A stretch of DNA of 64,000 nt from Saprospiraceae bacterium. Its GTDB lineage: Bacteria; Bacteroidota; Bacteroidia; Chitinophagales; Saprospiraceae. Positions 41 through 44,502 of the stretch are shown piece by piece. The first letter of the stretch is position 1. Each line of letters begins with the position of its first letter. Both the position numbers and the translations under genes were made by a program. Under the pieces are notes generated by a model. It was not told the origin of the DNA, did no database searches, and saw only the letters and a program-made list of their open reading frames with translations. The stretch lies in assembly GCA_020631405.1 (NCBI GenBank), contig JAHDHH010000010.1, positions 1-64,000 of the forward strand. Reading direction: 5' to 3'.

Positions 41-2764
41 TTAGAATGAATATTTTAAAGAAGCATTCCAAGTTCTACCAAATCCAAACCAAACGTAATT
101 CAACTTATTAACTCCGTTATAAGTCTCATCTCCAGCTTCTGCCGGAATATTCGTATTTGATTCAGCTATATATTCTGTATCAAGTAAGTTGTTAACATTT
201 ACTCTAAAAGTTAACAATTGGTCATTCTTCATATTATGATTATATGTAAGACCAAAATCCATCAACCCATAAGAAGGCAACTTAACTGCTCCAGCGTTAT
301 TTGGCTCTAAAAACGTATCATCTGTTACCGCGAAATCTGCATACAAGTTGTCGAAATATAAATAGCTAGCATCAACACTTAAGCCATCAATAATTTTATA
401 ATCAGCACCTAGGCTTAAAGTAGTCTGAGCTGCGTCACCAACTTTAACTCCCTCTAGGTAAAGTGTTCCTGTGCCAACACTCTCTTGATTATCATCAAAT
501 ACTTCAGATTCAACATCACCATTATAAGTCCAGTTGCCAAATGAAGCCATAACGTCTAAAGAAAGATCATTTGTAACTTCATAATCTGCCTCAATTTCAA
601 TACCGGAATGAATATTACTTAGATTAGAAAATGTTGCTGTTCCTTCAGCACCACTATCAAAAGTAAAACCTCTTGTTATGAATCTATTACCCCATGATGT
701 CGTATATAGGTTTACATTTACATCTAAAGCACTGCCATCAAAACCATAGCCTAATTCATAAGAAAGTATTTCTTCATTTTCGATATTATCACTAATGTTG
801 TTTGCAAAATTTGGAAATATTGCATCAAAGTTTGGTTGTCTCAAAATGTAACCAGCATTAGCAAAGACATTATGTTGTCCATTAATTGAATAATTTACAC
901 CACCTTTTACAAAACCACCAAGCTGACTATGTGTATCTGACTGTTGCTCATCTCCGGAATATCTGAAGAAATCTTCTCTTTGATAAGATTGATTTGATAC
1001 TCCACCTTGAACTACTGCAGAAAAAGAACTAGTAGCATACTCAGCTAATGCATTTACTCCTAACCAATTAACATTTCCTATATTATAATAATTTAATTTA
1101 TCGTCAAGGTTTATAGATACAAATGGTCTAGCCTCAGCTGAAGTATTTATAATATTTGGACTATTATTACTATCTCCAGTTGCAGCATACCCATCAAGAC
1201 CTAATAAGTCATTTAAAATTCTGTAATGCAAACCACTATATGATCTTCCGTCAAGACCTATTCCTAACTTCAAGTCACCAATCTGATGGTTCAAGTTGAC
1301 AATTCCTCCATACCAGTTGTGAGAATTTATTGATGATCTTCTAATTGCAACATTAGTATTAATTCCATCTACTCCTCCCAAGTCACTATCATTTGCTCCA
1401 ATAATTCCTCCAGCGAAACCAGAAACTCCTCCTGTATAAGGAGTACCTGATTGGTTGTTTGCGATTACCGCATCGAAATCAATTAATCCTTCAGATGTTC
1501 TGTATGGTAAACCATCATCGCTCATAGCAGCAGTAAGATCTTCTCTAAATGGATATATTCCAAAATTTCTACCACGTGGTCCAGTTCCGCCACCTCTACC
1601 CCATGATCCATAAAGCACAGTTGCTAAAGTAGTTTTATCAGATATCTCCCAATCCCAGTTTACTGATGCTAATGGCTTATTGTAAAAGTTTCTTCTAAAT
1701 GTAAACTCTTCTCCATCTCTCATTCCCCAATCACCATTGAATTTTCTGAAGTCATCTCCTCCATAGTTCTCATAATCTCTTATGCTTAACCATAGGTCTC
1801 TTTGATGATGCCATTGCCCTGCACCAAGAAAGCTTGCGTTAATTTTATGACCATTTCCGACATTATATCCGAATGCCGCAAGATAGTTGTAGCCCTCTCC
1901 TTTAGTTCCATCAACATATCCATTTCCCTGCCATCTTCCAATTAAAACACTTGCAGATAGTCCATTTTCCATTTCCCCAGTTCCGTAAGAAAGAGTTGTT
2001 TTGAGATATCCATCATTTCCAACACCAACATTTACGAATCCTCCTTCTTCTCTATCTGTTGATTTAGTTACGATATTCACTGTACCACCAACAGAAGGTA
2101 CTGCAAGTCTTGAAGCACCAATTCCTCTTTGAATTTGAATAACTGACGCAATATCCTGTAATCCAGCCCAATTTGACCAAAATACTCGACCATTTTCCAT
2201 ATCGTTAACAGGCTGTCCATTGATTATATATGAAGTGTTTGTTTGATCAAACCCTCTAACACTAATCCTTCCATCACCATAACCTCCACCTTGTTTAGTA
2301 GTGTAGATAGATGGTGTATTTTTCATAATTTCAGGGAATTCTTGATTACCTAATTTCATCTGTATATCCTTAGCAGATATGTTAGACAATGCAATAGGAG
2401 TTCTTCTGTCAGTTACAATATCCATTGTTCCTGTTACAACTACCTCACCTAATACATTCGCATTTCCTTTCATCATAATAGCACCAAGATCCATCATTTG
2501 ACCATTTGCTGCTACATCATAAGACATATCATTGTATCCTAAGTAAGATACAACAAGCGTCTGACTGCCATCTGGCACATTACCTAACTTAAAACTACCA
2601 TCGTAGTCAGTTATAGTTCCAATAGTTGATCCTTTGACCATAACTGATGCTCCGATTAAAGGTTCATTACTTTTAGAGTCCATTATCTTTCCAGATATCG
2701 TGGACTGCGCCATCATCATTCCGCATGTGAATACGAAAGCTAATAACATGGTTAGTTTTTTCAT
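41..2764 (-). CDS. TonB-dependent outer-membrane receptor with N-terminal carboxypeptidase-regulatory-like domain (ligand unknown)
   Basis: Outer-membrane, TonB-energised uptake channel of about 907 residues. It begins with a signal peptide (MKKLTMLLAF..., ending near MMMAQ), followed by a carboxypeptidase-regulatory-like beta-sandwich (about residues 22-105), a plug domain opening with GEVVVTGT and containing SVRGFDQT and GGTVNIVTK, and a long beta-barrel ending in the aromatic residue of SLKYSF. I chose the ATG at 2764 because it starts exactly at a signal peptide; a further 17 upstream codons are open but have no signal-like character. No SusD partner lies next to it, so it is not a standard Sus pair, and the ligand (siderophore, peptide, cobalamin or glycan) cannot be read from sequence. 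A TAnnTTTG box and an operator-like palindrome lie upstream. The receptor family is certain, the substrate unknown. Confidence 0.92.
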   Translation of the reverse strand: MKKLTMLLAFVFTCGMMMAQSTISGKIMDSKSNEPLIGASVMVKGSTIGTITDYDGSFKLGNVPDGSQTLVVSYLGYNDMSYDVAANGQMMDLGAIMMKGNANVLGEVVVTGTMDIVTDRRTPIALSNISAKDIQMKLGNQEFPEIMKNTPSIYTTKQGGGYGDGRISVRGFDQTNTSYIINGQPVNDMENGRVFWSNWAGLQDIASVIQIQRGIGASRLAVPSVGGTVNIVTKSTDREEGGFVNVGVGNDGYLKTTLSYGTGEMENGLSASVLIGRWQGNGYVDGTKGEGYNYLAAFGYNVGNGHKINASFLGAGQWHHQRDLWLSIRDYENYGGDDFRKFNGDWGMRDGEEFTFRRNFYNKPLASVNWDWEISDKTTLATVLYGSWGRGGGTGPRGRNFGIYPFREDLTAAMSDDGLPYRTSEGLIDFDAVIANNQSGTPYTGGVSGFAGGIIGANDSDLGGVDGINTNVAIRRSSINSHNWYGGIVNLNHQIGDLKLGIGLDGRSYSGLHYRILNDLLGLDGYAATGDSNNSPNIINTSAEARPFVSINLDDKLNYYNIGNVNWLGVNALAEYATSSFSAVVQGGVSNQSYQREDFFRYSGDEQQSDTHSQLGGFVKGGVNYSINGQHNVFANAGYILRQPNFDAIFPNFANNISDNIENEEILSYELGYGFDGSALDVNVNLYTTSWGNRFITRGFTFDSGAEGTATFSNLSNIHSGIEIEADYEVTNDLSLDVMASFGNWTYNGDVESEVFDDNQESVGTGTLYLEGVKVGDAAQTTLSLGADYKIIDGLSVDASYLYFDNLYADFAVTDDTFLEPNNAGAVKLPSYGLMDFGLTYNHNMKNDQLLTFRVNVNNLLDTEYIAESNTNIPAEAGDETYNGVNKLNYVWFGFGRTWNASLKYSF

Positions 2765-2798: not shown

Positions 2799-2830
2799 CA
2801 TATTGAATTTTTCAAAATATAACTTACATG

Positions 2831-2845
2831 TTAACATATTGTTAA
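2831..2845. promoter_or_regulatory. Operator-like palindrome TTAAC-N5-GTTAA upstream of the TonB receptor
   Basis: The bases read TTAAC, five spacer bases (atatt), then GTTAA, a perfect 5+5 inverted repeat. It overlaps a 10-bp palindrome ATGTTAACAT (2828-2837), and a second copy of that 10-mer occurs at 3210-3219. The same TTAAC-N5-GTTAA arrangement occurs twice upstream of the susC-like gene near 33.1 kb. The site lies 33 bases upstream of the candidate -7 box, where an activator might bind. Function is inferred from symmetry and recurrence only. Confidence 0.4.
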
Positions 2846-3307: not shown

Positions 3308-4222
3308 CTATGCAAAAATCTCTGCCATCATACACCTTACACTGCCCCCACCAATGGTTTCTATTAGAGTAATATCAGGTGAAAGTATTTCGGCATATTG
3401 CTCAATTTGGGTTATTTGAGACTGATCTAGTGTCTCGTAGGCAGTCTTTGACATCACTAAATATGGCTTGCCATCGGGGTCTTCGACTTGCAACATATTC
3501 CCTGCGAATTGTTCCATCTGCTCAAAGCTGATAGTAATGACTTCTTTACCTGTAGCACTAAAACTATCTAAAAGCTTTTGCCTATCTGTGAGGTCCTTAA
3601 TAGAGTCCATACAGATAACTACGTACTCTGAGCCAAGGGCCATCATGACATTGGTATGATAGATGGCTTGGTCATGACGATCTGTTGCAAGAAAACTCAT
3701 CGGTTCATACCTGTAGTCTTGACACCACTGTAGAAAGAGTTGTTCATGAGTCCTCACACTAGTACAGGCATAGGCTATCATATTATCTCTATCCAAGATG
3801 AGAGAGCCTGTTCCTTCGAGGATAATATCTAATTGCTCGTTGTGGGTATAGTCTCTGATTGAAGCATAGTGGTTTGCTGACATGAGGTTATCAATGATAT
3901 CACCACGTCGTTCTACCCTTCTAGACATTGCATGCATTGGATAGATAGCTATAGAACCTTGGTGTGTCGAAAACCAATTGTTTGGAAAGATAGCATCTGG
4001 TTTAATAGGGACTTCCGTGTCCTCTATGACTATAACTTCCACTTCCTTTGACCTAAGCAGACTGACCATTTCGTCAAATTCTTCTCTAGCTTTGAGCCTC
4101 ACTTCATCCGTGGACATATCTAGTTTAGTTTGAAAGGCATTGTTCTCAGCTGTTTCGGCATTGTATCCAAAATTGGCTGGTCTAACCATCAATACTGTAT
4201 TCGTAAAACTCTTCATAGTCAT
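3308..4222 (-). CDS. ctlX: Citrulline utilization hydrolase CtlX-type (arginine deiminase / amidinotransferase superfamily)
   Basis: Cytosolic enzyme of the guanidino-group-modifying superfamily, 304 residues (302 if the second Met is used). The N-terminal VLMVRPANFGYN, the central DAIFPNNWFSTH and EGTGSLILDR segments, the YHTNVMMALG histidine motif and the C-terminal GGGSVRC with the catalytic Cys near residue 297 match the CtlX branch, which lacks the long insert of classical ArcA. Members are thought to hydrolyse citrulline or a related ureido/guanidino compound; the exact substrate here is inferred. It begins 2 bases after the stop of the upstream queuosine-precursor transporter gene, so the two are probably co-transcribed, with no obvious metabolic link. 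A general arginine-deiminase-related hydrolase is the alternative. Confidence 0.8.
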   Translation of the reverse strand: MTMKSFTNTVLMVRPANFGYNAETAENNAFQTKLDMSTDEVRLKAREEFDEMVSLLRSKEVEVIVIEDTEVPIKPDAIFPNNWFSTHQGSIAIYPMHAMSRRVERRGDIIDNLMSANHYASIRDYTHNEQLDIILEGTGSLILDRDNMIAYACTSVRTHEQLFLQWCQDYRYEPMSFLATDRHDQAIYHTNVMMALGSEYVVICMDSIKDLTDRQKLLDSFSATGKEVITISFEQMEQFAGNMLQVEDPDGKPYLVMSKTAYETLDQSQITQIEQYAEILSPDITLIETIGGGSVRCMMAEIFA

Positions 4223-24500: not shown

Positions 24501-25002
24501 AGATACTATAAAAGTTGTAGATAGCATCAAAATCTACTGGCCATCAAAACACTACAATACCGAAACACTAGTCAATCCAAACATTAATACTAGGCACTAC
24601 GTAGTCGAAGACGATTCTTTCTTGAATGAGGAAGAAGAAGAAGAAGAAGAAGAAGAAGAATTTAGTGATGGTGGCATTATGGCTCAACTTCCAATAATCA
24701 AGTCGGATGCCTTACTTCGAGAAAGTACTAAAGAATCACAGTCTAGTGAAAGTCATCTGATATTCCCCAACCCAACTACAAATAACCAATTGACTATAAT
24801 GTCTGAGAGTCAAATAGAAGGTTTTGGGCTGTTATCCCCGAGTGGCAAGGATTTGGCTGCAGATATCACTCAAATGGCCACGCAAGAGAATAACTACCTC
24901 TATCACGTCTCTATTGACCTTCCTTCTGGTATATACTTTGTTCGGTATCGAGTAGGAGGGCAATATCATACACACAGGATTGTGATAATCAATCACAAAT
25001 AA
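21580..25002 (+). CDS. Secreted FG-GAP/VCBS-repeat protein with two ASPIC/UnbV domains and a T9SS type-A sorting domain (CRTAC1-like)
   Basis: Exported protein of 1140 residues of unknown biochemical role. A short signal peptide ends near PSIGQ. At least eleven FG-GAP/VCBS units follow, each with a calcium-binding-like loop (DFNRDGYDD, DIDNDGDYD, DSDNDGDDD, DFDNDGDVD and others), predicting a beta-propeller surface protein. Two ASPIC/UnbV-type domains occur at about residues 395-480 and 925-1005 (GIGSWITI...VVWWPTGH and CGAKIEI...IKIYWPSKH), so the protein looks like a tandem duplication of a propeller-UnbV unit. A run of 11 Glu (about 1017-1027) precedes a C-terminal sorting domain (FPNPTTNN...LPSGIYFVRY). 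The last 14 bases overlap the convergent sulfotransferase-like gene. Confidence 0.85.
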   Translation: MISIVFCFYLTPSIGQDLLFEESQILLNHSHLGAGGGGLSTIDFNRDGYDDLSLAGSKGKQSQFYINTQGNLQDTLLTGVNNVDEVKQLLWIDIDNDGDYDLFLTCKESQNKLYINQGELVFEEALLNYGLGQPQKNNFGAAFLDIDRDGFLDLYYAERPYTNLSGDNHFRLYKNNSGKHFTEVTSQYACGDKGKRPFGTLVIDANKDLYPDILNAHDRGNGNSLFVNEHGKLYRDISIESNICIDIDAMGMTSTDLNKDGFEDIYISNIDTGNKLYLSNQSDSILSFTEQAESYGLVHNKLGWSTQFFDANNDGRDELYIVHAATAAEHSNVLYQSNADSNYTPHLIIGDTLSNFSSGTMDLDNDQRLDIINAGVYGDQSKLYINKSEQGNVISISLRGKYSNIDGIGSWITIHQDSKKATSYTRSCEGFLTQLSNKHHFGLSSSEQIDSIVVWWPTGHTDRLYNITPNQHLEIIEGSTSQGVITVDQEVEHLYVANKLFTDVTSTMQINHFVYHSSFHGGGCAFFDSDNDGDDDLYVIGGLNADKLYVNNDSIFEEDGFFSGIGITNSFYTTGVSPGDFNNDGLEDLFVTTNGSDSLSRKNLLLVNLGNNTFQDVWSFVDTIGYSFGASLFDFNLDGLLDIVVMNYVQSPKFVYDEDGQIIGYDHTCYQNTIYENLGNFQFKLANGDLLPSGEGGCSLASLASDYDKDGDTDLIEVNDFGSDVQPNRLLTNNYPERQFLSNGDLMNFEDGIYGMGISGSDIDNDLDIDYYITNFGKNILKLNHNGVFDNGHDSLNIYSELNSQDTSLQSLSISWGVISQDFDNNGHSDLLIGNGYVPSPNFIPGKQLDHDRLYMNQGELNFVEPNTFDSGIDNLYSTRGIASSDFDNDGDVDFFANVMRIPVHQSGINSKLYRNNGQGDKNYIQVKLTGSVSNNSACGAKIEIYAKQHHSIQEIHCGSSFASSNSKVIHFGLDTIKVVDSIKIYWPSKHYNTETLVNPNINTRHYVVEDDSFLNEEEEEEEEEEEFSDGGIMAQLPIIKSDALLRESTKESQSSESHLIFPNPTTNNQLTIMSESQIEGFGLLSPSGKDLAADITQMATQENNYLYHVSIDLPSGIYFVRYRVGGQYHTHRIVIINHK
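24628..24660 (+). repeat. (GAA)10 trinucleotide microsatellite inside a coding region
   Basis: One GAG followed by ten consecutive GAA codons encodes a run of 11 glutamates between the second UnbV domain and the sorting domain of the FG-GAP protein. Slippage by whole triplets would vary the acidic linker length without a frameshift. Confidence 0.95.
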
Positions 25003-26641
25003 TTGAACACTTGGTCATCCTTCCCGAGTTTATTTCTTTGAGAAGGTATATTCCTGAAGGTAGATTTGCGACAGATATCTTACATGGTAGATGTTGGACT
25101 ATTTGCGATAAAACCAATTGTCCACTGATGTTGTATAATTGCAGTATATCACCTTTCACTACCCCACTAGCTGTCAAATCATTAATTGAAGGGTTCGGAT
25201 AAACTGAAAGAGGTTCATAAGTCAGATCGGTAGCTATAACCGAAGAGACCACACAGTAGGATTTATCAGAGGACGACTCAATATATTCAAGGTTATCCAA
25301 TGGCACCTCTTTAAAAAAATCGTAAGCATACTTCTTAGCTTGAAAAGTAAAATTTTCACTTAGACTCAACTCTTCACCTTGCTCTATTGGAAATCCATTC
25401 CGCATTGGGACTAGATACTCCCAAACTAAATCTCCATTGTCAGTCACTTCGAATATTCTGCCTTGTCTTCCAGCACACATCAATACATTCCCGTTGGGTA
25501 ATAATTGTATAGAAGAAGCAGCAGTTGAAAAATTCTTGCTTGTATCCGGATGAGAATAAGTATCTGCAACCGTAAGTGGCAAATATTGGTTTGACAATGA
25601 GTCAAATGCGTAGGATTGGGTCGTCTGGTCAAAAACAGGTACAATACTATTGCCTAATGAGAGATTCTCTCCTACCCAATTATTATAAAAATATAGCTTC
25701 GTATCACTGCTATCTATGTCACTCCATGCCACATCATGTTGGAAGAAACTTTGCCGATCTTCTTGTGAACCTGACTGATATGCTTCTGGATTGCCCCATC
25801 TGTACAAAATGCTCCCACCTTTCATAGAATTGCCGCCAGTCTCTAAGGATGCTTCTAAAGAGGTGGTAGAATGATCTATAATATAGAATTCGTTCATATA
25901 CTTTGAACTAATTACAATCTGATCTAACCTTGGGTTGTAATCAATACTGTTACAATGCAGCCAATCTTGTCTACCAGCGCTATATTTCTGATAATTGATA
26001 TCCAGTCTGTGTGGTTGTTCTCTGATAGATCCGTAGTTCATCTTGGTTGAATCAAAATCTTGAATCAGGTGATCCCAAGCATGCCATTCCCAAACAATCG
26101 AATCGTTAGTCGGATCTACCTCGAAAATAGCATCAGACCATATTTCTTTTTGTGGATTATTGATGGTATCAAATCCCATTTCAACGATTTCACTCAGTCT
26201 GTGTCTTTCCCATGCTATCATGATTACATTTCCACTTGGCAGCAGCTCAATATCATGATGCTGTCTGTATTGATCGTTTGCAAGCTTGTATTGCCAAAGT
26301 AATGTTCCATTCCAGTCATACTGCTCAATAAGTCCTCCTGCCCCGCCTGTACCAAGAGTCGGCTCTGTAAGTACTGCACCATTCAAGCTACAAACATAAA
26401 GGTTGCCTAGGCTATCAAGCAGGCTTTTACTTCCTGGTCTACTAGAGGGATCTAATTGCCAAGTATTTACTATCTCACCACAATTATTAATGAGAAAGAC
26501 TGTCGACTGCTGATTTGGATAAAACAACGTGAAGCCTTGATCAACTGCTTCATCATCAATCAATAAGGTCCCCACCGTCTGTTGGCTAACCAACGAGATC
26601 GAAGAAGAACAAAGCAATAATATAAAAACTCTATAAAGCAT
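24989..26641 (-). CDS. Arylsulfotransferase (ASST)-like secreted beta-propeller protein with T9SS sorting domain
   Basis: Exported protein of about 550 residues. The start at 26641 (MLYRVFILLL) puts a signal peptide first; 13 more upstream codons are open but would be translated from a terminator hairpin. The body resembles the ASST/arylsulfotransferase propeller family: repeated W-D/N-G-T-L-W type blades, a QHHDIELLPSGNVIMIAWE segment and a later FFQHDVAW and SIQLLPNGNVLMCAGR. Bacterial AssT uses an active-site His and moves sulfate between phenolic compounds; whether the catalytic residues are conserved here cannot be confirmed. The C-terminus (VYPNPS...NLPSGIYLLK) is a T9SS type-A signal. 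It follows the SusCD cluster on the same strand but behind a strong terminator. Confidence 0.72.
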   Translation of the reverse strand: MLYRVFILLLCSSSISLVSQQTVGTLLIDDEAVDQGFTLFYPNQQSTVFLINNCGEIVNTWQLDPSSRPGSKSLLDSLGNLYVCSLNGAVLTEPTLGTGGAGGLIEQYDWNGTLLWQYKLANDQYRQHHDIELLPSGNVIMIAWERHRLSEIVEMGFDTINNPQKEIWSDAIFEVDPTNDSIVWEWHAWDHLIQDFDSTKMNYGSIREQPHRLDINYQKYSAGRQDWLHCNSIDYNPRLDQIVISSKYMNEFYIIDHSTTSLEASLETGGNSMKGGSILYRWGNPEAYQSGSQEDRQSFFQHDVAWSDIDSSDTKLYFYNNWVGENLSLGNSIVPVFDQTTQSYAFDSLSNQYLPLTVADTYSHPDTSKNFSTAASSIQLLPNGNVLMCAGRQGRIFEVTDNGDLVWEYLVPMRNGFPIEQGEELSLSENFTFQAKKYAYDFFKEVPLDNLEYIESSSDKSYCVVSSVIATDLTYEPLSVYPNPSINDLTASGVVKGDILQLYNISGQLVLSQIVQHLPCKISVANLPSGIYLLKEINSGRMTKCSIICD

Positions 26642-26647
26642 AGATAT

Positions 26648-26677
26648 AAAAAAAGGGAAGGCGTAACACCTTCCCTT
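26648..26677 (-). terminator. Rho-independent terminator between the lipoprotein gene and the ASST-like gene
   Basis: A perfect 9-bp stem (AAGGGAAGG/CCTTCCCTT, 7-base loop; arms 26669-26677 and 26653-26661) is followed on the minus strand by seven T. It lies 23 bases after the stop of the lipoprotein gene and only 6 bases before the start codon of the ASST-like gene. Confidence 0.88.
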
Positions 26678-26700
26678 CATATGTATTGTAAACTAAAATT

Positions 26701-27624
26701 TTAGTTTGTCAAATCCGCTGGCCAATCTACGCCATCAGTTCTTGTTAATTGAACGTCAGCACCTTCGCCGTAATCATTACTCCAGTTGAAAGTTAATACA
26801 TTACCCTCTACTGATAGTGAGTTAATAGTATAAACCTCACCCCATTGAGATGCACCTTGAATAGTAATTGTACCATCAACATCAGAAATAGTAAGGTCTC
26901 CCATACCTGAACCGTTATTCGGCAAGCTACCCTGAGCATCTGTACCATAACATGAATAGTAAGCTCCGTGAGACATATCATCAAACTTTTCTTCAGCAGC
27001 AGAAGTAGTAAGTACTGTATAGTTACCATCTCCATTTGGATCAGTATGGTTTCTTACCCATTCAGCAGTACCTTCCCAAGTCTGACCTTCGCAGTCATCC
27101 CAGCCGTAACCGCCCATTTGGTTTGTAAGAGTTGTTAGACAACTAAATACGCCTGCAAGTGCAGACTTAAATATTGTTACCACTTCTACACCTACAGTTG
27201 CTCCTGCCTTATATTCTCCAGAAGAAGTAACTACTTCGCCAAATGAGAATGTAAATGCATCTCCAGGTGTCAATGCATCAGCACTAACTCCTGCAGCAGC
27301 CGCAGCTTCATTCATATTGAAGCTCTCCGTTGAAGGAAGACTAGAAATACTCTTAACTAATTGTGGAGCACCTCCATTGTATGATATATACATATTAACA
27401 GAAGATACAGCTTCACCATTGCTTGTGACATCAAATGCAATAGGTGTCAAATCAAGATCTGCAATATTGTATTCTGATCCAGTGATACCACTTACTCCAA
27501 TAGTTGCTCCAGCAACACCAAAGAGTGAATCTTCAGCTTTCTCAACAATAGGGTCTTCATTACAACCAACTGCGAAAAGCAAACCGAAGATTAAGCATAA
27601 ATTAAATATATTATTAATTTTCAT
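26701..27624 (-). CDS. Putative surface lipoprotein of unknown function in a SusCD cluster
   Basis: Lipoprotein of 307 residues with a type II signal peptide (FAVGC, acylated Cys near residue 21). The rest is beta-rich and low in charge, with an Ala-rich stretch (NEAAAAAG) near residue 110, a Cys/Trp-bearing middle (GGYGWDDCEGQTWEGTAEWV) and a C-terminal half resembling a small calycin- or lipocalin-like barrel (TWEGTAEW ... GDLTISDVDGTITIQG). Its place at the end of a SusC-SusD-unknown cluster suggests a SusE/SusF-like surface ligand-binding role, which is inference. A strong terminator closes the transcript after it. No family name is assigned with confidence. Confidence 0.7.
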   Translation of the reverse strand: MKINNIFNLCLIFGLLFAVGCNEDPIVEKAEDSLFGVAGATIGVSGITGSEYNIADLDLTPIAFDVTSNGEAVSSVNMYISYNGGAPQLVKSISSLPSTESFNMNEAAAAAGVSADALTPGDAFTFSFGEVVTSSGEYKAGATVGVEVVTIFKSALAGVFSCLTTLTNQMGGYGWDDCEGQTWEGTAEWVRNHTDPNGDGNYTVLTTSAAEEKFDDMSHGAYYSCYGTDAQGSLPNNGSGMGDLTISDVDGTITIQGASQWGEVYTINSLSVEGNVLTFNWSNDYGEGADVQLTRTDGVDWPADLTN

Positions 27625-27638
27625 TTTTAACTTAATTT

Positions 27639-28358
27639 TTAATTTTTGAAATTTGAAATCATTTTCTTGACTTCACTAATTTTATTTAAATTAATATTTT
27701 CTTTCTTGACATAAGCAACAAATTCCTGATTGCTCAGCTTACTCAAAATCTTATTGTTAGATCCCTTCAATTTCACTACTTCATCATCTACAATCAGGAC
27801 ATGTTCTGAGTTCTTTATGTATTTGTCATTGACATTTCCAACATCTATTGCAACATTATAACTTGCCTTTACGAGCTTTACAGAATGAAGCAATGCAAAT
27901 GTGGCGATGCTATTCGACTCGACAACCTCATAATAGTTACTAGACGAATTTTCAACATCAACTACTCTTACAAAATTTACAATTTCCACTTTACCAGTAT
28001 CCGTCAATTTGGTTGTATTAAATTGAGTAAATACTGAATTTGGCAACGTGAAATACTGCCCTTCAATTTGAACGACTAAAGTCTGATCTGAAACATTAAA
28101 CTTAAGAGGCAAGTCTGAAAGTACTTTACCATCAAAGAGCTTAATACTTCCATTAAACCATGCGTTATCCAAGTAAGGGCTTCCCTCTGCTTTATAATCT
28201 CTTAAGTCAAATGAATTTATCCCATATACTGACATCTGCTGTCGATTAGCCAGTAATGTAGGATTGTGTCTTAATGAAACTTCATTAATTGTCGATTGAC
28301 AAAATGAAATTTCATTAAGCACAAACAAAATTATTGATATAGTCAAGAATCTAATCAC
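27639..28358 (-). CDS. Exported protein of unknown function in a SusCD cluster
   Basis: A 239-residue protein with an N-terminal signal peptide (MIRFLTISII..., cleavage near SFCQS) and no lipobox. The mature part is mixed beta/alpha and Lys-rich at the end (KKENINLNKISEVKKMISNF). It contains an LKFNVSDQTLVVQIEGQYF stretch and looks soluble and periplasmic. The start codon is GTG and shares its G with the TAG stop of the upstream SusD gene (TAGTG), which implies translational coupling and a role tied to the SusCD complex. The next gene follows after 14 bases. I do not recognise the family. Confidence 0.75.
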   Translation of the reverse strand: MIRFLTISIILFVLNEISFCQSTINEVSLRHNPTLLANRQQMSVYGINSFDLRDYKAEGSPYLDNAWFNGSIKLFDGKVLSDLPLKFNVSDQTLVVQIEGQYFTLPNSVFTQFNTTKLTDTGKVEIVNFVRVVDVENSSSNYYEVVESNSIATFALLHSVKLVKASYNVAIDVGNVNDKYIKNSEHVLIVDDEVVKLKGSNNKILSKLSNQEFVAYVKKENINLNKISEVKKMISNFKN

Positions 28359-29734
28359 TATTGAAATGCCCAGACATCAACATTAAGTAATCCATCTCCA
28401 CCCTGTGCAGCTTTAGCAGCTTCTACATTAATAGAGTTAGTTGCAGATTCTGTATCGGCATATAAATATCTTCTAGGTATTTGACCACCTGGGTTCAATC
28501 CATTTGCTTCATTGTTCTGCGGCGTAATAGCCGGATATCCGGTTCTTCTATAATTAGACCAAGTCTCATGGAAGTTATAACCATAGTAAGCCTTATAAGC
28601 TTCAGTCATAATTACATTCAACGCATCTTCTGTAGACAACCCAGCTAAAGAACTATTTGCAGCAGCGTAAGCTCCTCCATCATCTAATCCAATCTGAGCC
28701 ATGGAAGCATTGATAGCTTCAGCTAATACTGCAGACGCATCCGAACCATTTCTTGTCATACATTCAGCTTGAATCATCTTCACTTCTACGTACGAGATAA
28801 GTGGTAAAGTAGCATCATTCTTAGACCAAGCTAAAGCACCTTGATTCCAAAAATCCCAAACACTTACGCTATCAGTTACAAAGTAAGACTCTGCTCTAGG
28901 ATCACCATCAAGCATAGCTGCAAAGTCAGGGTGAAAACCTAAAGTACCTGGTCTCTCACTTCCAAACTTAGCTAATGCGTGGTTTGCTGTCTGAGAAGAC
29001 TCAAATGTCAAATTCGGCTGTGCATCTAAGCTTGTAAATGCAGCTTGAACTGCAGACATTGCATTTGCGATGTCACCAGAATTCCTCTTAGAAGTATGCA
29101 TGTAAAATCTTGCTTTGAACGCTTGTGCTGTTGCAATCCAAGCTGCAGCATCACCATCAAAAACAAGGTCTCCTCCAGCATATCCAGTAGCTGAACCTAG
29201 GTCAGCTATTCCTGCATCAAGCATATCTTGAACAGCAATGTAAACACTCTCTTGACTGTCATAAGATGGCTGAGTTATAGCAATACCTTGTAATGCTTCA
29301 GTCATAGGAATATCACCGAAATATGATGTAGCAAGTCCATATTGGTTTGCCATTAGTATTTTGGCAACACCTGAATAGAATGATGCTTCTTCTACTTCAG
29401 CCTTTTCAATTATAGCTTGACATGCTCTTAGCGATCCTGCATATAATCCTGTATTCCAGAAATTATTCATTGCATTTTCAGAAATATTGTAATTTCCGTA
29501 GTCAATCTGCTGAGCATCAAGACCTTGAAATTGCTTCATTATAAGTCCAGCAACTCTAGCTGGGTTAGTTCCTTCATTAAAGAAAGACTGTACTACTGCC
29601 TCAGGCAACATTAACCTTAGGTCTACCTCAGTAAGGCTATTTGGATCAGTATTGATCTCTTCTAATGTCTCACTACATGAGTTGAAAACAAAGGTTCCAA
29701 CTATAAGTAGCAATAAATATTTTAAATTATTCAT
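28358..29734 (-). CDS. SusD/RagB-family nutrient-binding outer-membrane lipoprotein
   Basis: Surface lipoprotein of 458 residues that caps a SusC channel. The signal peptide ends in a lipobox (VFNSC, Cys near residue 20), followed by the typical NTDPNSLTEVDLRLMLPEAV segment and helical TPR-like parts (FWNTGLYAGSLRACQAIIEKA). It belongs to the shorter SusD-like subgroup often linked to peptide or unknown substrates. It lies 24 bases after susC and its stop codon overlaps the GTG start of the next gene by one base. No glycoside hydrolase accompanies it, so the imported substrate is open. Confidence 0.93.
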   Translation of the reverse strand: MNNLKYLLLLIVGTFVFNSCSETLEEINTDPNSLTEVDLRLMLPEAVVQSFFNEGTNPARVAGLIMKQFQGLDAQQIDYGNYNISENAMNNFWNTGLYAGSLRACQAIIEKAEVEEASFYSGVAKILMANQYGLATSYFGDIPMTEALQGIAITQPSYDSQESVYIAVQDMLDAGIADLGSATGYAGGDLVFDGDAAAWIATAQAFKARFYMHTSKRNSGDIANAMSAVQAAFTSLDAQPNLTFESSQTANHALAKFGSERPGTLGFHPDFAAMLDGDPRAESYFVTDSVSVWDFWNQGALAWSKNDATLPLISYVEVKMIQAECMTRNGSDASAVLAEAINASMAQIGLDDGGAYAAANSSLAGLSTEDALNVIMTEAYKAYYGYNFHETWSNYRRTGYPAITPQNNEANGLNPGGQIPRRYLYADTESATNSINVEAAKAAQGGDGLLNVDVWAFQ

Positions 29735-29758: not shown

Positions 29759-32700
29759 TTAGAAAGAAAGTTTCACGGTAGCATTGTAGCTTTTCGTGTT
29801 CGGATTATTAAAGTAATCCAATCCATATCCGTTAGTATCTCCAGTTAAGTTAGTCTCTGGATCAATTCCAGGGTACTCTGTCTTTAACCAAAGGTTTCTT
29901 CCAGATAATGTAATGTCTACTCCTTCTATTCCAGAATTACCTAAAGCAGAAGTTGGCAAGCTAAATCCTAAAGTCAATTCTCTCAATCTCACCCAACTTG
30001 CATCAAATATATTCATCTCTCCAATTCCTCCAAATCCATATCTTACTCTGTAGTAATCTCCAACACCGTTAGGGCTTGATGGATCTGCTAGAGCAACAGG
30101 AGTAGTGTTAGCTTCATATACTGGCTCATCTGCTGTTCCAGTATTAACAACACCATTGAATACTACAACATCATCTCTTTCTTCAGCAGATAATTCTGAA
30201 GTCCCGAAGTAATTGATAATTCCACAAGTACCACACCATACAGATCCACCTTGTCTGATATCAAGTAAACCTGAAAGAGTCACTCCTTTGTAAGTGAATG
30301 AGTTTCTCCATCCTGCTGTCCAGTCTGGGTTAGGATCAGCTAAAGCCTTTGGTGTAGGATCAACTAACGGCCATCCATCATTTCCTACAATAATTTGATT
30401 ATCATCAGTTCTTTGGAAACCAAGTCCATAAATCGCAGAATATGGTTGACCTGCAACTGCTCTCGCTGATGTAGAAGTAAATCCTGCTAAGAAATCATTC
30501 TCTAAATCATCTTTTAAGCTTTCTACAGTGTTTTCCATTGCAGTAAAGTTCACTTCTGTGTCCCATCTGAAATCACCAACTCTAACTGGGTTTGCATATG
30601 CTGAAACCTCCCATCCTGCATTTGTTATCACTGCTGCATTTTCTACTGCATTAGTATAACCTGTAGTTGGAGATATTTCAACAGCAATAATTACATCACT
30701 TGACTCTGCATTGAAATAATTCACATCAACACCTAATCTATCATTTAAGAATTTAAATTCTCCACCAATTTCATAAGAAGTAGTTGATTCTGGTACTATC
30801 AAGTTATTCCCAAGAAGGATATCTCTTTCGTATGCACTTGTTCCGAATGCAGGGAAGTCAAATGATGTAATAAATCCATCACCACCGATACCTGCATCTG
30901 TTGCACTTGAAGCAAGTAAGAATACATTGTTAGTTGCATATACAAATGCATCAAGTCCAACCTTACCTGCTGATAATCTAAGTTTACCATAGTTAAAGAA
31001 ACTAGAGCTCAAGTCCATTAATTCAGAGAATGCAAAACCTAAACTTGCAGAATATGATTGGTATGTGTTATTCGCAGCCGGAAGCGTTGAAGACCAGTCA
31101 TTTCTAGCAGTTAAGTTTAAGAATAAGTATTCTGAAAAGTTGAAATCTACTGTTCCATACACTCCCATGATTCTCTTTCTCAAAATCTCTTCTGAACCTT
31201 GAATATCAGTAGCATTACTGATATGGTAGAAGTTAGGAGAAGACAATGTAGTACCCCTAGTAGATCTTTGATAGAACCTAGTATCATAAGCATTGAATCC
31301 TGCTAAAGCTGAGATTCCAAACTTATCAGATAATTGATCATTGAAACTTAATGTCAAATCAGAGTTCAAGTCACGATTCGACAAATCATGCTGTGCTACT
31401 GAACCTACTGTCCATCCTGGAACTATATCCTCTGTATCTAGTCTTCTATCTGAGTAAGTATCTAGACCTAACTTGTAACCCAATCTTAATGTTGGAGTCA
31501 AATCATATCCTAAATTGACATTTCCTATAACTCTATTGACATTGTCAAATGATTGGTTCTTGTTTACCACCCAGTAAGGGTTGTCATAAATACCAGCTCT
31601 ATATGATCTCTGATCTCCATTAGCTAATTCGTAAGTACTTACCTCATCTGCAGCTTCTTGTCCACTAAGACCATTTCCTACGTCAAATGTTGGTGTATTT
31701 CTAAGCAGTCCTAACATTACTCCTCTAAGGTTTGATCCTCTTTGAAGTCTTGTTCCTCCTGAGTTAATGTAATTAATGTCCAATCCTACATCAAACTTGT
31801 CAGTGACTGCAGAGTTAGTATTTAATCTAAATGAATTTCTATTGAATTCAGAATTTGGTACGATTCCATCCTGAGATAGTCTTCCAAAAGACATGAAATA
31901 TTTAAATGCTTCCGATCCGCCTGAAACATTAGCATTTAAATCATAAGTATTACCATTTACGAAAAAATCGTATGGATCATATGCTTCTGCAGCTTGTCCA
32001 CTTCCTTCTCCTGTTGGTACAAGGCTACCTCTTGAGTCATAAGGATAATCTTCATTACCATCAAACTCTAACCCAGAAATTGCTGGTCCCCAGCTAAATC
32101 CTTCGAAAGTCTCTGGACCTCTCCATGTAGGTACACCACCAACTGGTCTTCCTTGAGCATAAATTGATTGTCTCGCTGGCAATTGGTTAGCTTGGTCAAG
32201 ACCATAAGAAGCAGACACTGTAACTTTTGGTTTTCCAGTAGTACCTCTTTTTGTTGTAATAACAATAGCTCCGTTTGCAGCTCTTACACCATATAAAGCT
32301 GTTGCAGCAGCACCTTTAAGTACTGTCAATGACTCTACATCGTTAGGATTAATGTCGATTGCTCTGTTTGAGTAATCCACACCCGATACATTTGATGATC
32401 CAGGATCTGCTCCTGTTCCAACTGAAGAGTTATCAATTGGCACACCATCAACTACGAATAATGGACTGTTAGACCCATTAATTGATACTGATCCTCTAAT
32501 TCTGATGTTAGAAGAAGCACCTGGAGACCCAGAACTACTTACAACTGATACACCTGCAACCTTTGAATTCAATGCATCAACAAAGTTGACTTCTTGAGAA
32601 CTGATTAAGTCATCTGGATCTACATTTTGTACTGCATACCCGAGAGTTCTTTTGTTCCTTTCTAGACCAGTTGCAGTAACTACAACTTCATCTAAAATAG

Positions 32701-32989
32701 CTCCTTCTGACAAAGTGACAACAATGCTACTAAGTCCTGCAACACTCACTTCTTGAGTAGCAAAACCAGTATAACTTACTGTTACCATGTCAACACCTTC
32801 AGGAACTTCGATAGCAAAGTTTCCATCAATGTCAGTAATTGTACCTACAGAGGTACCTTTTGCAATGACGTTAACACCAATCAGAGGCATTCCATCATTG
32901 TCTGTGATTGTTCCCGTTACTGTCTGTTGAGCCATACTCAACGTTACGCAGCACACAAGGAAACAGAATAGCAAGGCTAGTCTTTTCAT
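29759..32989 (-). CDS. SusC/RagA-family TonB-linked outer-membrane transporter
   Basis: TonB-dependent channel of about 1076 residues. The start at 32989 gives a signal peptide (MKRLALLFCFLVCC...) ending near SMAQQ. A carboxypeptidase-regulatory-like domain follows (TVTGTITDNDGMPLIGVNVI), then the SusC-type plug with EVVVTATGLERNKRTLGYAV, the IRIRGSVSINGSNSPLFVVD box and GVRAANGAIVITTKRG, and a barrel ending in ATVKLSF. SusD follows after 24 bases, making a standard uptake pair. An open frame continues to a GTG at 33043 but has no signal-like character. Two operator-like palindromes and a -7 box lie upstream. Confidence 0.95.
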   Translation of the reverse strand: MKRLALLFCFLVCCVTLSMAQQTVTGTITDNDGMPLIGVNVIAKGTSVGTITDIDGNFAIEVPEGVDMVTVSYTGFATQEVSVAGLSSIVVTLSEGAILDEVVVTATGLERNKRTLGYAVQNVDPDDLISSQEVNFVDALNSKVAGVSVVSSSGSPGASSNIRIRGSVSINGSNSPLFVVDGVPIDNSSVGTGADPGSSNVSGVDYSNRAIDINPNDVESLTVLKGAAATALYGVRAANGAIVITTKRGTTGKPKVTVSASYGLDQANQLPARQSIYAQGRPVGGVPTWRGPETFEGFSWGPAISGLEFDGNEDYPYDSRGSLVPTGEGSGQAAEAYDPYDFFVNGNTYDLNANVSGGSEAFKYFMSFGRLSQDGIVPNSEFNRNSFRLNTNSAVTDKFDVGLDINYINSGGTRLQRGSNLRGVMLGLLRNTPTFDVGNGLSGQEAADEVSTYELANGDQRSYRAGIYDNPYWVVNKNQSFDNVNRVIGNVNLGYDLTPTLRLGYKLGLDTYSDRRLDTEDIVPGWTVGSVAQHDLSNRDLNSDLTLSFNDQLSDKFGISALAGFNAYDTRFYQRSTRGTTLSSPNFYHISNATDIQGSEEILRKRIMGVYGTVDFNFSEYLFLNLTARNDWSSTLPAANNTYQSYSASLGFAFSELMDLSSSFFNYGKLRLSAGKVGLDAFVYATNNVFLLASSATDAGIGGDGFITSFDFPAFGTSAYERDILLGNNLIVPESTTSYEIGGEFKFLNDRLGVDVNYFNAESSDVIIAVEISPTTGYTNAVENAAVITNAGWEVSAYANPVRVGDFRWDTEVNFTAMENTVESLKDDLENDFLAGFTSTSARAVAGQPYSAIYGLGFQRTDDNQIIVGNDGWPLVDPTPKALADPNPDWTAGWRNSFTYKGVTLSGLLDIRQGGSVWCGTCGIINYFGTSELSAEERDDVVVFNGVVNTGTADEPVYEANTTPVALADPSSPNGVGDYYRVRYGFGGIGEMNIFDASWVRLRELTLGFSLPTSALGNSGIEGVDITLSGRNLWLKTEYPGIDPETNLTGDTNGYGLDYFNNPNTKSYNATVKLSF

Positions 32990-33065: not shown

Positions 33066-33073
33066 CAAATATA
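33066..33073 (-). promoter_or_regulatory. Candidate -7 box of the SusC-SusD cluster near 33 kb
   Basis: The minus strand reads TATATTTG, an exact TAnnTTTG, giving a leader of about 70 bases before the susC ATG. It lies directly downstream of two palindromes, the nearer of which would cover the -33 region. Confidence 0.5.
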
Positions 33074-33083
33074 AATTAATATC

Positions 33084-33130
33084 TTAACACAGAGTTAATA
33101 AATCAATCAAAAGTCTTAACGAGGTGTTAA
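33084..33130. promoter_or_regulatory. Pair of operator-like palindromes TTAAC-N5-GTTAA upstream of susC
   Basis: Copies at 33084-33098 and 33116-33130 are each a perfect 5+5 inverted repeat with a 5-base spacer; including the preceding C, 12 of 16 bases agree between the copies. Their centres are 32 bp apart, close to three helical turns, as expected for a regulator binding one DNA face. The nearer copy falls at roughly -25 to -39 relative to the predicted start. The same motif occurs at 2831-2845 upstream of the orphan TonB receptor. Confidence 0.55.
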
Positions 33131-33164
33131 CGTATTAACTTGGGTAAATGTAATTGTTAATTTT

Positions 33165-33881
33165 TTAAGCCAATTGTCTTTTGTACATCAAAATTGTGTT
33201 GCTCAAACCATAATAGAGGGAATCTGAAATCAGTGCATGACCTATGGAGACCTCCAATACTTGGGGCACTTCATTGACATAGTATTTCAAATTCTTTAGA
33301 TTTAAATCATGCCCAGCGTTGACACCTAGACCTAACTTTGCTGCTTCTTTTGCCGCCTCGATATGTGGCATTACTGCTAATTTGGGATCATCAACAAACC
33401 TCTCTGCATAGCCACCTGTATAGAACTCTACCCTATCAGTATTCACTTCTTTGGCAAGCTCCATTAAACCAGCCTGAGCCTCCATAAATATTGAAACACG
33501 TATACCGCCTGCTTTTAAAGCCGATATGACTTCCAATAACAGATTTTTATCCCTGGATATATCCCAACCTTCTGAGCTTGTCAATACTCCCGGAGGGTCT
33601 GGAACCAACGTACACTGATGTGGCTTTACGCTTAGCACATGGTTAAGAAACTTAGGTGATGGATATCCTTCAATATTAAACTCAGTGGTATTGGCCTCCA
33701 TAAGAATTGGAAGATCTGAATATCTTACGTGTCTTTCATCAGGCCTTGGGTGTACAGTAATGCCTTCAGCTCCAAATTCTTCACAGTCGATAGCAACTTG
33801 TCTTAGATTTGGCAGATTACCACCACGTGAATTTCTAATTAAGGCTACTTTATTAATATTAACACTTAGCTTTGTGCTCAT
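33165..33881 (-). CDS. pdxJ: Pyridoxine 5'-phosphate synthase
   Basis: Cytosolic TIM-barrel enzyme of 238 residues that condenses 1-deoxyxylulose 5-phosphate with 3-amino-2-oxopropyl phosphate in de novo vitamin B6 synthesis. The N-terminal LSVNINKVALIRNSRGG, the ITVHPRPDERHVRYSD segment, the CTLVPDPPGVLTSSEGWD loop and GLGVNAGHDLNLKN near the C-terminus are diagnostic. It stands alone between susC (downstream) and divergent cdsA, and no pdxA is nearby. Confidence 0.96.
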   Translation of the reverse strand: MSTKLSVNINKVALIRNSRGGNLPNLRQVAIDCEEFGAEGITVHPRPDERHVRYSDLPILMEANTTEFNIEGYPSPKFLNHVLSVKPHQCTLVPDPPGVLTSSEGWDISRDKNLLLEVISALKAGGIRVSIFMEAQAGLMELAKEVNTDRVEFYTGGYAERFVDDPKLAVMPHIEAAKEAAKLGLGVNAGHDLNLKNLKYYVNEVPQVLEVSIGHALISDSLYYGLSNTILMYKRQLA

Positions 33882-42757: not shown

Positions 42758-43444
42758 ATGAATGAGGATGTTAGAATACTAATTGTAGATGATGAAGAGG
42801 ACATCTTAGAGTTTCTAGAGTACAACTTGACCAAGGCAGGTTATACTGTGAGCAAAGCCTCTAGTGGAGAAGAAGCGCTAGCTTCGATCGAAGAAGTCAG
42901 GCCAGACCTAGCTATATTAGACATTATGATGCCAACAATGGATGGGATAGAACTCTGCGAACGCATTAGAGCAACCGAAGAAAATCATGATATGCTGATT
43001 ACCTTTTTAACTGCAAGGTCAGAGTCTTTCACTCAAATATCCGCATTAGAAGCTGGAGCTGATGACTACATTACCAAGCCCATCAAACCAAGTCTCTTTG
43101 TCAGTAAGGTAAAGTCAATATTAAGAAGACATCCAAAGCTTAGTGAAAAACAAGGCAACAACTTGATGACGTTCGGCAATCTAGAAATTAATACACAAGC
43201 TTATTCTGTTGTATTAGATGGCAAGACTATCATACTTGCTAAGAAAGAATTTGAACTATTAGCCCTGCTTGCTTCTAAGCCTGGGAAAGTATTCAAAAGA
43301 TTAGAAATACTCCATAAAGTGTGGGGAGTTGATGTCATTGTTGGGGATCGTACTATTGATGTCCATATCCGGAAATTGAGGGAGAAAATTGGAAGCCAAT
43401 ATATTCGAACCCTGAAGGGTGTAGGTTACAAATTCGAAGTGTGA
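42758..43444 (+). CDS. OmpR/PhoB-type two-component response regulator
   Basis: Cytoplasmic transcription factor of 228 residues. The receiver domain (about 5-120) has the acidic pocket DDEED, the phospho-acceptor Asp55 in LAILDIMMP, the conserved Thr in TFLTARSE and Lys in DYITKPIKP. A winged-helix DNA-binding domain (about 130-228) contains KKEFELLALLASKPGKVF and RTIDVHIRKLREKIG. Its TGA stop overlaps the ATG of the histidine kinase by one base. The pair resembles the single PhoB/PhoR- or RprY-like systems of Bacteroidota; the target regulon is not visible. Confidence 0.94.
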   Translation: MNEDVRILIVDDEEDILEFLEYNLTKAGYTVSKASSGEEALASIEEVRPDLAILDIMMPTMDGIELCERIRATEENHDMLITFLTARSESFTQISALEAGADDYITKPIKPSLFVSKVKSILRRHPKLSEKQGNNLMTFGNLEINTQAYSVVLDGKTIILAKKEFELLALLASKPGKVFKRLEILHKVWGVDVIVGDRTIDVHIRKLREKIGSQYIRTLKGVGYKFEV

Positions 43445-44502
43445 TGCTTGGCAAAGATTTTAAAAGAATACAACTAGCTCTTTTATTGTCGCTGATGACC
43501 TCAGGTATAGTCACTGTGATTGTCATCCTACTCTACCTTTCTTCTTTGATTGAAAACCCAATCATAGCTGTAGGACTGATTTTTTTACTCGTTCTCATTA
43601 TATCATTCATCATCCTGTCTCAATTCTTAGAACGCTATGTATTAAGGAGAATTCGCCTTATATATAAGATTATCAACTCAACAAAACTTGGTGGTAATCC
43701 AAATCTCACTGATAGTGATTTCTATAAGTCTAGCTCTCTTGAAGAAGTCAATACAGAAGTTGTCAGCTGGGCCAAGAATACAGCACAAGAAATCAAAGCA
43801 CTCAAGTCACTAGAAGAATACCGCAAGCAATATGTCGGGGATATTTCACATGAACTCAAAACTCCCATATTCTCACTACAAGGATACTTACATACCTTGC
43901 TTGAAGGAGGAATGTATGATGAGAAAATATTGAAGAGGTATATTGAAAAAGCCTCCGCTAATGCAGACAGGCTAGAAATGATAGTAAAAGACCTCGAATA
44001 TATCAATGTACTAGAAGGACAGGAAACTACTCTAGAATTCTCCTCGTTTCCACTAAAACCGTTGATAGATGAAGTACTTTCTGACTTAACGCTAACTGCA
44101 AATGAAAAGAACATATCATTTGGCTTCAAAGCAGGAGATGACGAAGATTTCATAGCAAAGGCTGACAAAGACACGATTATACAAGTACTCACTAATCTTA
44201 TCGTAAATTCAATAAAGTACGGGAAGGTTGGAGGGACAACTCGAATTGGGCTCTATGATATGGACGAGAATATATTGATAGAAATATCAGATGATGGGAT
44301 AGGAATTGAAGACCATCACCACAAGCATTTATTTGATAGGTTCTACCGTGTAGAACGCAGTAGAAATCGAGAAGATGGGGGATCAGGTCTTGGCCTATCT
44401 ATAGTCAAGCATATCATTGAAGCTCATGGACAGACGATCAGTGTCAGAAGCACAAAGGATGTCGGGAGTACATTTGGATTTACGTTAGCGAAGCATCACT
44501 AG
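43444..44502 (+). CDS. Sensor histidine kinase
   Basis: Membrane sensor kinase of 352 residues, partner of the upstream regulator. Two hydrophobic segments (about 10-35 and 38-62) lie close together, leaving almost no periplasmic loop, so it probably senses within or at the membrane. The H-box DISHELKTP carries the phospho-acceptor His136. N (LIVNSIKYG), G1 (EISDDGIGIE), F (LFDRFYRVERSR) and G2 (GSGLGLSIVKHI) boxes are complete. I use the ATG at 43444 (TGATG overlap) rather than the in-frame GTG one codon earlier. It ends 3 bases before the stop of convergent tamL. Confidence 0.93.
   Translation: MLGKDFKRIQLALLLSLMTSGIVTVIVILLYLSSLIENPIIAVGLIFLLVLIISFIILSQFLERYVLRRIRLIYKIINSTKLGGNPNLTDSDFYKSSSLEEVNTEVVSWAKNTAQEIKALKSLEEYRKQYVGDISHELKTPIFSLQGYLHTLLEGGMYDEKILKRYIEKASANADRLEMIVKDLEYINVLEGQETTLEFSSFPLKPLIDEVLSDLTLTANEKNISFGFKAGDDEDFIAKADKDTIIQVLTNLIVNSIKYGKVGGTTRIGLYDMDENILIEISDDGIGIEDHHHKHLFDRFYRVERSRNREDGGSGLGLSIVKHIIEAHGQTISVRSTKDVGSTFGFTLAKHH

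Follow-up and report, generated by a model that had tools for sequence, protein, structure and literature searches.

SusCD and TonB-dependent machines dominate the envelope of Bacteroidota, and to our knowledge it is poorly known how these bacteria adjust the synthesis of such machines to the state of the envelope. Response regulators of the OmpR family usually leave a dimer footprint made of head-to-tail half-sites one helical turn apart. CpxR, a member of this family, targets DegP/HtrA and activates its own operon, and the Pho boxes bound by PhoB/PhoP are 11-bp head-to-tail TTAAC-like repeats. The CpxR box is given as 5'-GTAAA-N5-GTAAA-3', in head-to-tail orientation, in PMC12802237. The closest described system in Bacteroidota is RprXY: plasmid-borne rprX/rprY is reported to affect OmpF/OmpC in E. 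coli, while in B. fragilis the two genes are reported to be essential, with no settled reason offered (PMC4072883); in Porphyromonas gingivalis RprY is an orphan (PMC6032018), for which binding to the promoters of groES, clpB and dnaK as well as to its own is reported (PMC5706477). A term search found neither 'motif' nor 'consensus' in PMC3646045 and PMC6032018, and no published GTTAA box for an RprXY-like system was found in the open-access literature searched.

The locus that we compare with these systems lies in a window of 64,000 nucleotides (the whole stretch of DNA analysed) from a Saprospiraceae bacterium, in the 175 bp that separate pdxJ, with its stop at 33165, from susC, which starts at 32989. 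This gap contains two TTAAC-N5-GTTAA palindromes whose starts, at 33084 and 33116, are 32 bp apart. The genus is represented throughout by four genomes: the bacterium's own (G000) and G001, G002 and G003. Gene content, the type of promoter and the phylum to which the closest relatives of the regulators belong agree with an assignment to Bacteroidota. The relevant features of the window are as follows; TAnnTTTG is the consensus by which we take 33066..33073 to be the -7 element, and the boxes are predictions whose derivation is given further on.

41..2764, minus strand: TonB-dependent receptor with a CarbopepD_reg_2 domain
2830..2845, plus strand: predicted box GTTAACATATTGTTAA, upstream of the TonB-dependent receptor
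2831-2845: palindrome TTAACATATTGTTAA, upstream of the same receptor
26701..27624, minus strand: 307-aa protein, with 27% identity to the lipoprotein encoded in G002 between the boxes and susC
28358..29734, minus strand: susD-like lipoprotein (PF12771)
29759..32989, minus strand: susC, SusC/RagA TonB-linked outer-membrane protein (TIGR04056)
33066..33073, minus strand: -7 element TATATTTG (TAnnTTTG), called from sequence and identical in the four aligned genus members
33083..33099, minus strand: predicted proximal box ATTAACTCTGTGTTAAG (susC sense strand), which includes the 33084 palindrome; one base differs in G002
33084-33098: palindrome TTAACACAGAGTTAA, perfect 5+5 with a 5-base spacer
33115..33131, minus strand: predicted distal box GTTAACACCTCGTTAAG (susC sense strand), which includes the 33116 palindrome; identical in G002
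33116-33130: palindrome TTAACGAGGTGTTAA, perfect 5+5 with a 5-base spacer
33135..33139, plus strand: extra TTAAC half-site upstream of the boxes, with a GTTAA at 33156-33160; may be due to chance
33165..33881, minus strand: pdxJ, upstream neighbour and landmark

The observations on which the initial annotation of this locus was built were all recovered: two perfect palindromes with the same spacer 32 bp apart, a third copy before another TonB receptor gene (41-2764), and the nearer palindrome over the predicted -33 region of susC, which the proximal box overlaps. From the end of the GTTAA in this proximal box to the -7 element there are 10 bp, and from the end of the second GTTAA in the distal box 42 bp. 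The estimate of well under one such motif by chance in 64 kb also holds, since dinucleotide shuffling of the window gives an expectation of 0.14, with at least three copies in 0 of 100 shuffles, against the three observed. Genome-wide, the strict palindrome occurs at 6 sites in the 3.79 Mb of the bacterium's own genome, compared with about 8 predicted from the shuffle rate of the window, and 2 of the 6 are in coding sequence; the 21 sites across the genus show no excess over a control with the reversed pattern. The local cluster is unusual, yet the palindrome per se carries no genome-wide signal, and as the unit of the site it was rejected, because neither the 6 own-genome nor the 21 genus sites are enriched over the reversed-pattern control. 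One palindrome form, TTAACAATATGTTAA, occurs in G000 (L004/L089, C34) and G001 (L081, C125) within flanks common to both (GATTAACAATATGTTAAAT); in G000 some 280 bp separate it from a downstream gene whose product exceeds 1500 residues, and in G001 it is near a contig end.

Counts of this kind are what would be expected if the palindromes had arisen by chance or simply followed from the AT-richness of intergenic DNA, and the mostly intergenic location of GTTAA pairs at spacings that differ from the one described below (15 of 22 in the own genome) fits the same explanation. The first argument against it is conservation in close relatives, which the initial annotation had proposed to examine. In the alignment of the window with G002, 33 of 34 box positions and 8 of 8 positions of the -7 element are identical, compared with 79 of 136 positions in the rest. 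Both boxes are kept in G002 at their 32-bp spacing despite the presence of a lipoprotein gene between boxes and susC; the G003 promoter has one perfect palindrome at the proximal place, and that of G001 a degenerate version. The 16-mer GTTAACATATTGTTAA is also found at the homologous TonB receptor of G002 and G003. In G001 the gene at L479 was considered as an orthologue of the window's receptor and rejected, as it encodes a different outer-membrane protein and has no tblastn match at 1e-10.

Several observations on the gene content of these neighbourhoods can be added. In two relatives (L035/L077 of G002 and L039 of G066) susC is separated from the boxes by a lipoprotein gene; with a relative of the G002 one located downstream of susD in the window, this gene may have been relocated within, or duplicated around, the SusCD operon. 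At the end of the SusCD cluster of the window (24989-26680) lies the gene for a protein that resembles arylsulfotransferases and has a type IX secretion tail, which is a possible clue to the transported substrate. The box-bearing TonB receptor adjoins a gene for a dimethylarginine dimethylhydrolase-type protein (3308-4222; PF19420, E 1e-99).

For a wider comparison pdxJ was used as a single-copy landmark with which orthologous susC promoters could be fetched. After exclusion of the pdxJ loci with no susC detected downstream (21 of 55 in a first set, 33 of 80 in a second, held-out set), 34 and 47 promoters were obtained, or 81 in all; left out were also 16 low-ranking pdxJ matches, matches at contig ends (G106, G116, G141, G074) and fragments (G049). 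Gaps between pdxJ and susC longer than 600 nt were trimmed to the last 600 nt, and at two loci with an intervening lipoprotein gene only the part before or around the start of that gene was scanned. As an observation in its own right, pdxJ followed by a same-strand susC is a conserved neighbourhood (81 of 135 pdxJ loci from the family and the order) with no obvious metabolic reason. When all 5-mers and spacers are considered, TTAAC-N5-GTTAA is the top inverted pair in the first 34 promoters (8 loci and 11 sites, 0.07 in shuffles), and again in the 47 held-out promoters (9 loci, 0.07 in shuffles), a repetition that also speaks against chance; inverted TTAAC/GTTAA pairs at spacers 0-4 and 6-8 are found in none of the 81. 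The top direct repeat is GTTAA-N6-GTTAA, which is present in 27 of the 81 promoters, compared with 17 for the strict inverted pair. An EM model seeded with the palindrome converges on (G/A)TTAA(C/G)-N5-GTTAA, a direct repeat in which the spacer is A-rich and the logo asymmetric, and GTTAA direct repeats with N5 or N6, head-to-tail and separated by about one helical turn, top the susC promoter set as well as the sets of HtrA and kinase promoters discussed below. Since the strict palindrome is unenriched, and in view of the spacing tables, we have adopted the direct repeat as the unit: the palindrome captures, as judged from these promoters, part of a direct repeat whose period is 11 bp, (G/A)TTAAS-N5-GTTAA, and becomes visible because the first half-site of the repeat can end in C (TTAAC...GTTAA).

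These data also bear on the possibility, implied by the initial annotation, of a symmetric operator that is confined to TonB/SusC genes and is bound by a dimeric one-component regulator of one of the types TetR, GntR, MarR or CRP. Such an operator would explain the perfect dyads at 33084, 33116 and 2831, and why the inverted N5 pair leads all inverted repeats at the pdxJ-susC promoters; it is difficult to reconcile with the higher frequency of the direct repeat at the same promoters, with the asymmetry of the logo, and with the occurrence of the dyad in only 2 of 22 HtrA and 4 of 56 kinase-side promoters, and we consider it improbable.

In the four genus genomes GTTAA-N6-GTTAA has 66 matches at 64 places. 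Of these matches 62 are intergenic, in the sense that they fall outside mechanically chosen ORFs of at least 100 aa (one own-genome site starts at the last base of an ORF), and 60 are located no more than 400 bp upstream of an ORF, as are all 16 of those in the own genome. An equal frequency inside coding regions, which the initial annotation had named as a refutation, is nearly reached by the strict palindrome in the own genome (2 of 6) and not by the direct repeat, of whose 66 matches in the genus 4 are coding. In the own genome the 16 copies at N6 compare with 9, 11, 6, 9, 6 and 6 copies at spacers of 3, 4, 5, 7, 8 and 9, respectively. Since the 15 of 22 intergenic cases mentioned above come from such other spacings, as examined in the own genome (4 of the 15 being at promoters that also bear the N6 repeat), intergenic location is weak evidence when taken alone, and tests based on orthologs and on gene function were added. 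Inside the window GTTAA-N6-GTTAA is found only at 2830 and 33116.

By Pfam assignment, the genes downstream of the box include a trypsin-like/PDZ protease (HtrA type), OmpH proteins (Skp type), a Porin_O_P protein, a DUF1573 lipoprotein, an AhpC/TSA-type (TlpA-like) thiol protein, a CarboxypepD_reg/Plug outer-membrane protein, three ECF-type sigma factors, and two operons that encode a HisKA kinase and a Response_reg/Trans_reg_C regulator. The N6 repeat is present in all four genus genomes at HtrA, at both OmpH/Skp loci, at the DUF1573 lipoprotein and at the CarboxypepD_reg/Plug gene; in three (G000, G002, G003) at the TonB receptor of the window; and in two (G000, G002) at both kinase-regulator operons. 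With a crude signal-peptide rule, and with orthologues that are not independent of each other, 56 of 80 target ORFs look exported, compared with 32 of 118 other ORFs at the same loci. The predicted functions of this gene set are the content of a cell-envelope regulon. The ECF-type sigma-factor genes with a box (Sigma70_r2, Sigma70_r4_2) are those at L462 (G000:C72), L466 (G002:C45) and L245 (G001:C26). The conclusion originally drawn from the palindromes, that of a regulator dedicated to outer-membrane uptake genes, is partly right but too narrow: a real and conserved regulatory site precedes susC and recurs at the second TonB receptor as well as before more outer-membrane genes, but its unit is a direct repeat and not a palindromic operator, and the genes involved go beyond uptake to HtrA, Skp/OmpH, sigma factors and kinase operons.

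The 11-bp TTAAC repeats led us to consider a Pho box of a PhoB-type regulator, with SusCD as a part of phosphate uptake; the window encodes a PhoB-like regulator and kinase (42758-44502), and one own-genome site precedes the Porin_O_P gene. This candidate was dropped because no PstC match over the cut-off is found in the four genus genomes (best E 9e-6). Moreover, no repeat of the window is near the PhoB-like operon, the sites being instead at HtrA, Skp and RprY-like operons, and the gene set differs from that of a Pho regulon in that it concerns the envelope rather than phosphate; we regard a Pho box as very unlikely here. As a separate observation, this PhoB-like regulator and kinase (42758-44502) belong to a genome where no PstC match exceeds the cut-off of the family.

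The box was then sought at orthologous promoters outside the genus, in a scan that left out L428 and L429. HtrA promoters bear the repeat in 18 of 25 cases, which is the sum of 15 of 18 (shuffle mean 0.1, maximum 2) and of 3 of 7 in a second batch (eight loci, seven of them parseable); a match to the -7 consensus was recognized in 5 of 19 box-bearing HtrA promoters, two of them exact, 39 bp after the box. The repeat precedes the Skp-Skp operon in 4 of 4 genus genomes and in 11 of 25 outside the genus (shuffle mean 0.14, maximum 2; locus L435 was unparsed); the 11 are all found among 14 genomes of the same family, compared with 0 of 11 in other families.

The two kinase-regulator operons of the own genome encode regulators that we call RR-A (L248:1253-1972) and RR-B (L251:3374-4069). 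In relatives outside the genus, promoters on the kinase side of RR-B-type regulators have the repeat in 6 of 16 cases, a count from which loci with no complete gene upstream of the regulator were omitted and in which the 16 may include a few non-kinases. A broader search of named genomes with RR-B as the query gave an independent set of 80 loci, of which 58 were examined; 36 of these have a recognised kinase directly upstream, and 35 of the 36, all from Bacteroidota, a promoter longer than 100 nt (L313 and L341, whose titles name other phyla, are outside the 35). GTTAA-N5/N6-GTTAA is present in the 250 bp before the kinase in 17 of these 35 promoters (shuffle mean 0.2, maximum 2), where it is the commonest direct repeat of any 5-mer; by kinase size, the count is 7 of 10 for kinases of up to 445 aa and 10 of 25 for longer ones. 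Of 28 kinase promoters that carry a slightly looser box, 21 have TAnnTTTG with at most one mismatch at a distance of 26-28 bp downstream of it, 14 of them with an exact match, and for 3 of the 7 others the sequence is too short to tell. The kinase promoters of Rhodonellum psychrophilum (L319), Sphingobacterium nematocida (L349) and Pedobacter montanisoli (L309), and those of the Bacteroidales MAGs L293, L299 and L304, have the repeat; those of Prevotella (L300, L301) and Porphyromonas (L342) do not. As controls, the repeat occurs in 1 of 52 of the 250-bp regions upstream of pdxJ and in 11 of 259 other promoters of the same loci, two of which (L323, L325) belong to HisKA kinases beside a regulator of the same type. 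The difference between these controls and the HtrA and kinase promoters, added to the recurrence in held-out promoters and to the conservation of the box positions, makes an origin by chance or base composition extremely improbable.

The box, its conservation, its gene set and its position at RprY-like operons are thus results of the computation itself. That a protein binds the box, and which one, are predictions. Both RR-A (249.5 bits) and RR-B (249.0 bits) have NCBIfam RprY (NF051850, RespRegRprY) as their best family but do not reach its cut-off of 370; RR-C, another regulator found in the genus, scores 300.9 bits, the nearest of the three and still below 370. In G000 as in G002, the gene immediately upstream of RR-A, like the one upstream of RR-B, encodes a HisKA/HATPase_c kinase. 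The likeness to RprXY consists of the best match of all three regulators to RespRegRprY and of the kinase genes that adjoin those of RR-A and RR-B in the own genome. The differences are scores of 249, 249 and 301 against an equivalog cut-off of 370, the lack of a strict box at the RR-C operon, and the targets, which in the accessible parts of the P. gingivalis reports are oxidative-stress, iron, sodium-pump and cytoplasmic chaperone genes, and not HtrA, Skp or SusCD. The likeness to CpxAR is one of function and not of family: head-to-tail pentamers about one turn apart with HtrA among the targets, but the pentamer is GTTAA with N6 (N5 in some cases) rather than GTAAA-N5-GTAAA, and the scores against the CpxR family (NF008199) are 115.9 bits for RR-B and 123.4 bits for RR-A, with a cut-off of 341.

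As for the choice among the three paralogues, RR-B and RR-C were found throughout the four genus genomes, whereas RR-A was recovered from G000 and G002 alone; with HtrA and Skp boxes in all four genomes, RR-B or RR-C would be the better candidate for a common binder. The RR-C operon, in which a gene of 477-479 aa precedes RR-C, has no strict GTTAA-N5/6 repeat in its promoter in 4 of 4 genus genomes, with imperfect pairs in G002 and G003 (GTTAA-N6-CTTAA, GTTAA-N6-ATTAA). The RR-B orthologues of G001 (L403, C94) and G003 (L402, C78) have no kinase gene directly upstream, in which respect they resemble the orphan RprY of P. gingivalis as described in PMC6032018, and no repeat within 1.5 kb, so that the box gives no sign of autoregulation by RR-B in these two genomes. 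We favour RR-B as the putative binder over RR-A and RR-C; given two or three RprY-like regulators in each genus genome, this assignment is a tentative one.

A related possibility is that the regulator belongs to the OmpR family but is none of the RprY-like proteins, the kinase operons being mere targets. Three observations agree with it: a strict box is lacking, in each of the four genomes, from the operon of RR-C, the paralogue nearest to RprY; Trans_reg_C matches number 5 in the own genome; and no kinase-side box is seen in G001 and G003, where HtrA and Skp boxes are present. We nevertheless consider it unlikely, because the repeat precedes operons of this kinase-regulator type across distant Bacteroidota orders at a nearly fixed distance from the -7 element, which is the usual sign of autoregulation, and because RprY of P. 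gingivalis is itself reported to bind its own promoter (PMC5706477).

We conclude that the paired palindromes are probably two tandem boxes for a phosphorylated OmpR-family regulator of an RprXY-like two-component system, which would control an envelope regulon. One box would consist of two GTTAA half-sites in direct repeat, about one helical turn (11 bp) apart. The predicted targets of the regulator would be the HtrA protease, the Skp/OmpH chaperones, lipoproteins, TonB receptors, the SusCD operon of the window and, in many genomes, the operon of the regulator and its kinase. At the kinase promoters, the nearly fixed distance between box and -7 element is of the kind expected for an activator, and would fit positive autoregulation. 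At susC, the position of the proximal box on the -33 region suggests that the regulator may set the output of SusCD directly: with this box over -33 and the distal one 42 bp before the -7 element, RNA polymerase and the regulator would compete or touch. The signal and the sign of the effect at susC are more conjectural; repression of SusCD under envelope stress is a guess, which we think more likely than activation. At other susC promoters the distance from box to -7 element varies (10, 15, 20-21 and 31 bp are among the values), and boxes that end 15, 20-21 or 31 bp before the -7 element suggest that the sign may differ between species.

These results can be placed in a broader context, in which the box would define a response to outer-membrane stress that is general among Bacteroidota, is governed by RprY-like regulators and takes the place of Cpx and sigma-E. 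Under an overload of the envelope by the assembly of SusCD or TonB receptors, the regulator would raise HtrA, Skp, the ECF sigma factors and itself, and would lower the synthesis of SusC and TonB receptors through the boxes at -33. We put this forward tentatively, as a proposal that we hold to be possible and somewhat doubtful. Boxes before ECF sigma-factor genes would chain the regulon to a sigma-factor response, and a box shared among RprY-like paralogues could bear on the reason why rprXY is essential in B. fragilis. Together, the box and its gene set would provide a readable DNA signature for a poorly understood kind of regulator, and with a protease, chaperones, receptors, sigma factors and kinase-regulator operons in this set, the control of SusCD by the state of the envelope becomes directly testable.
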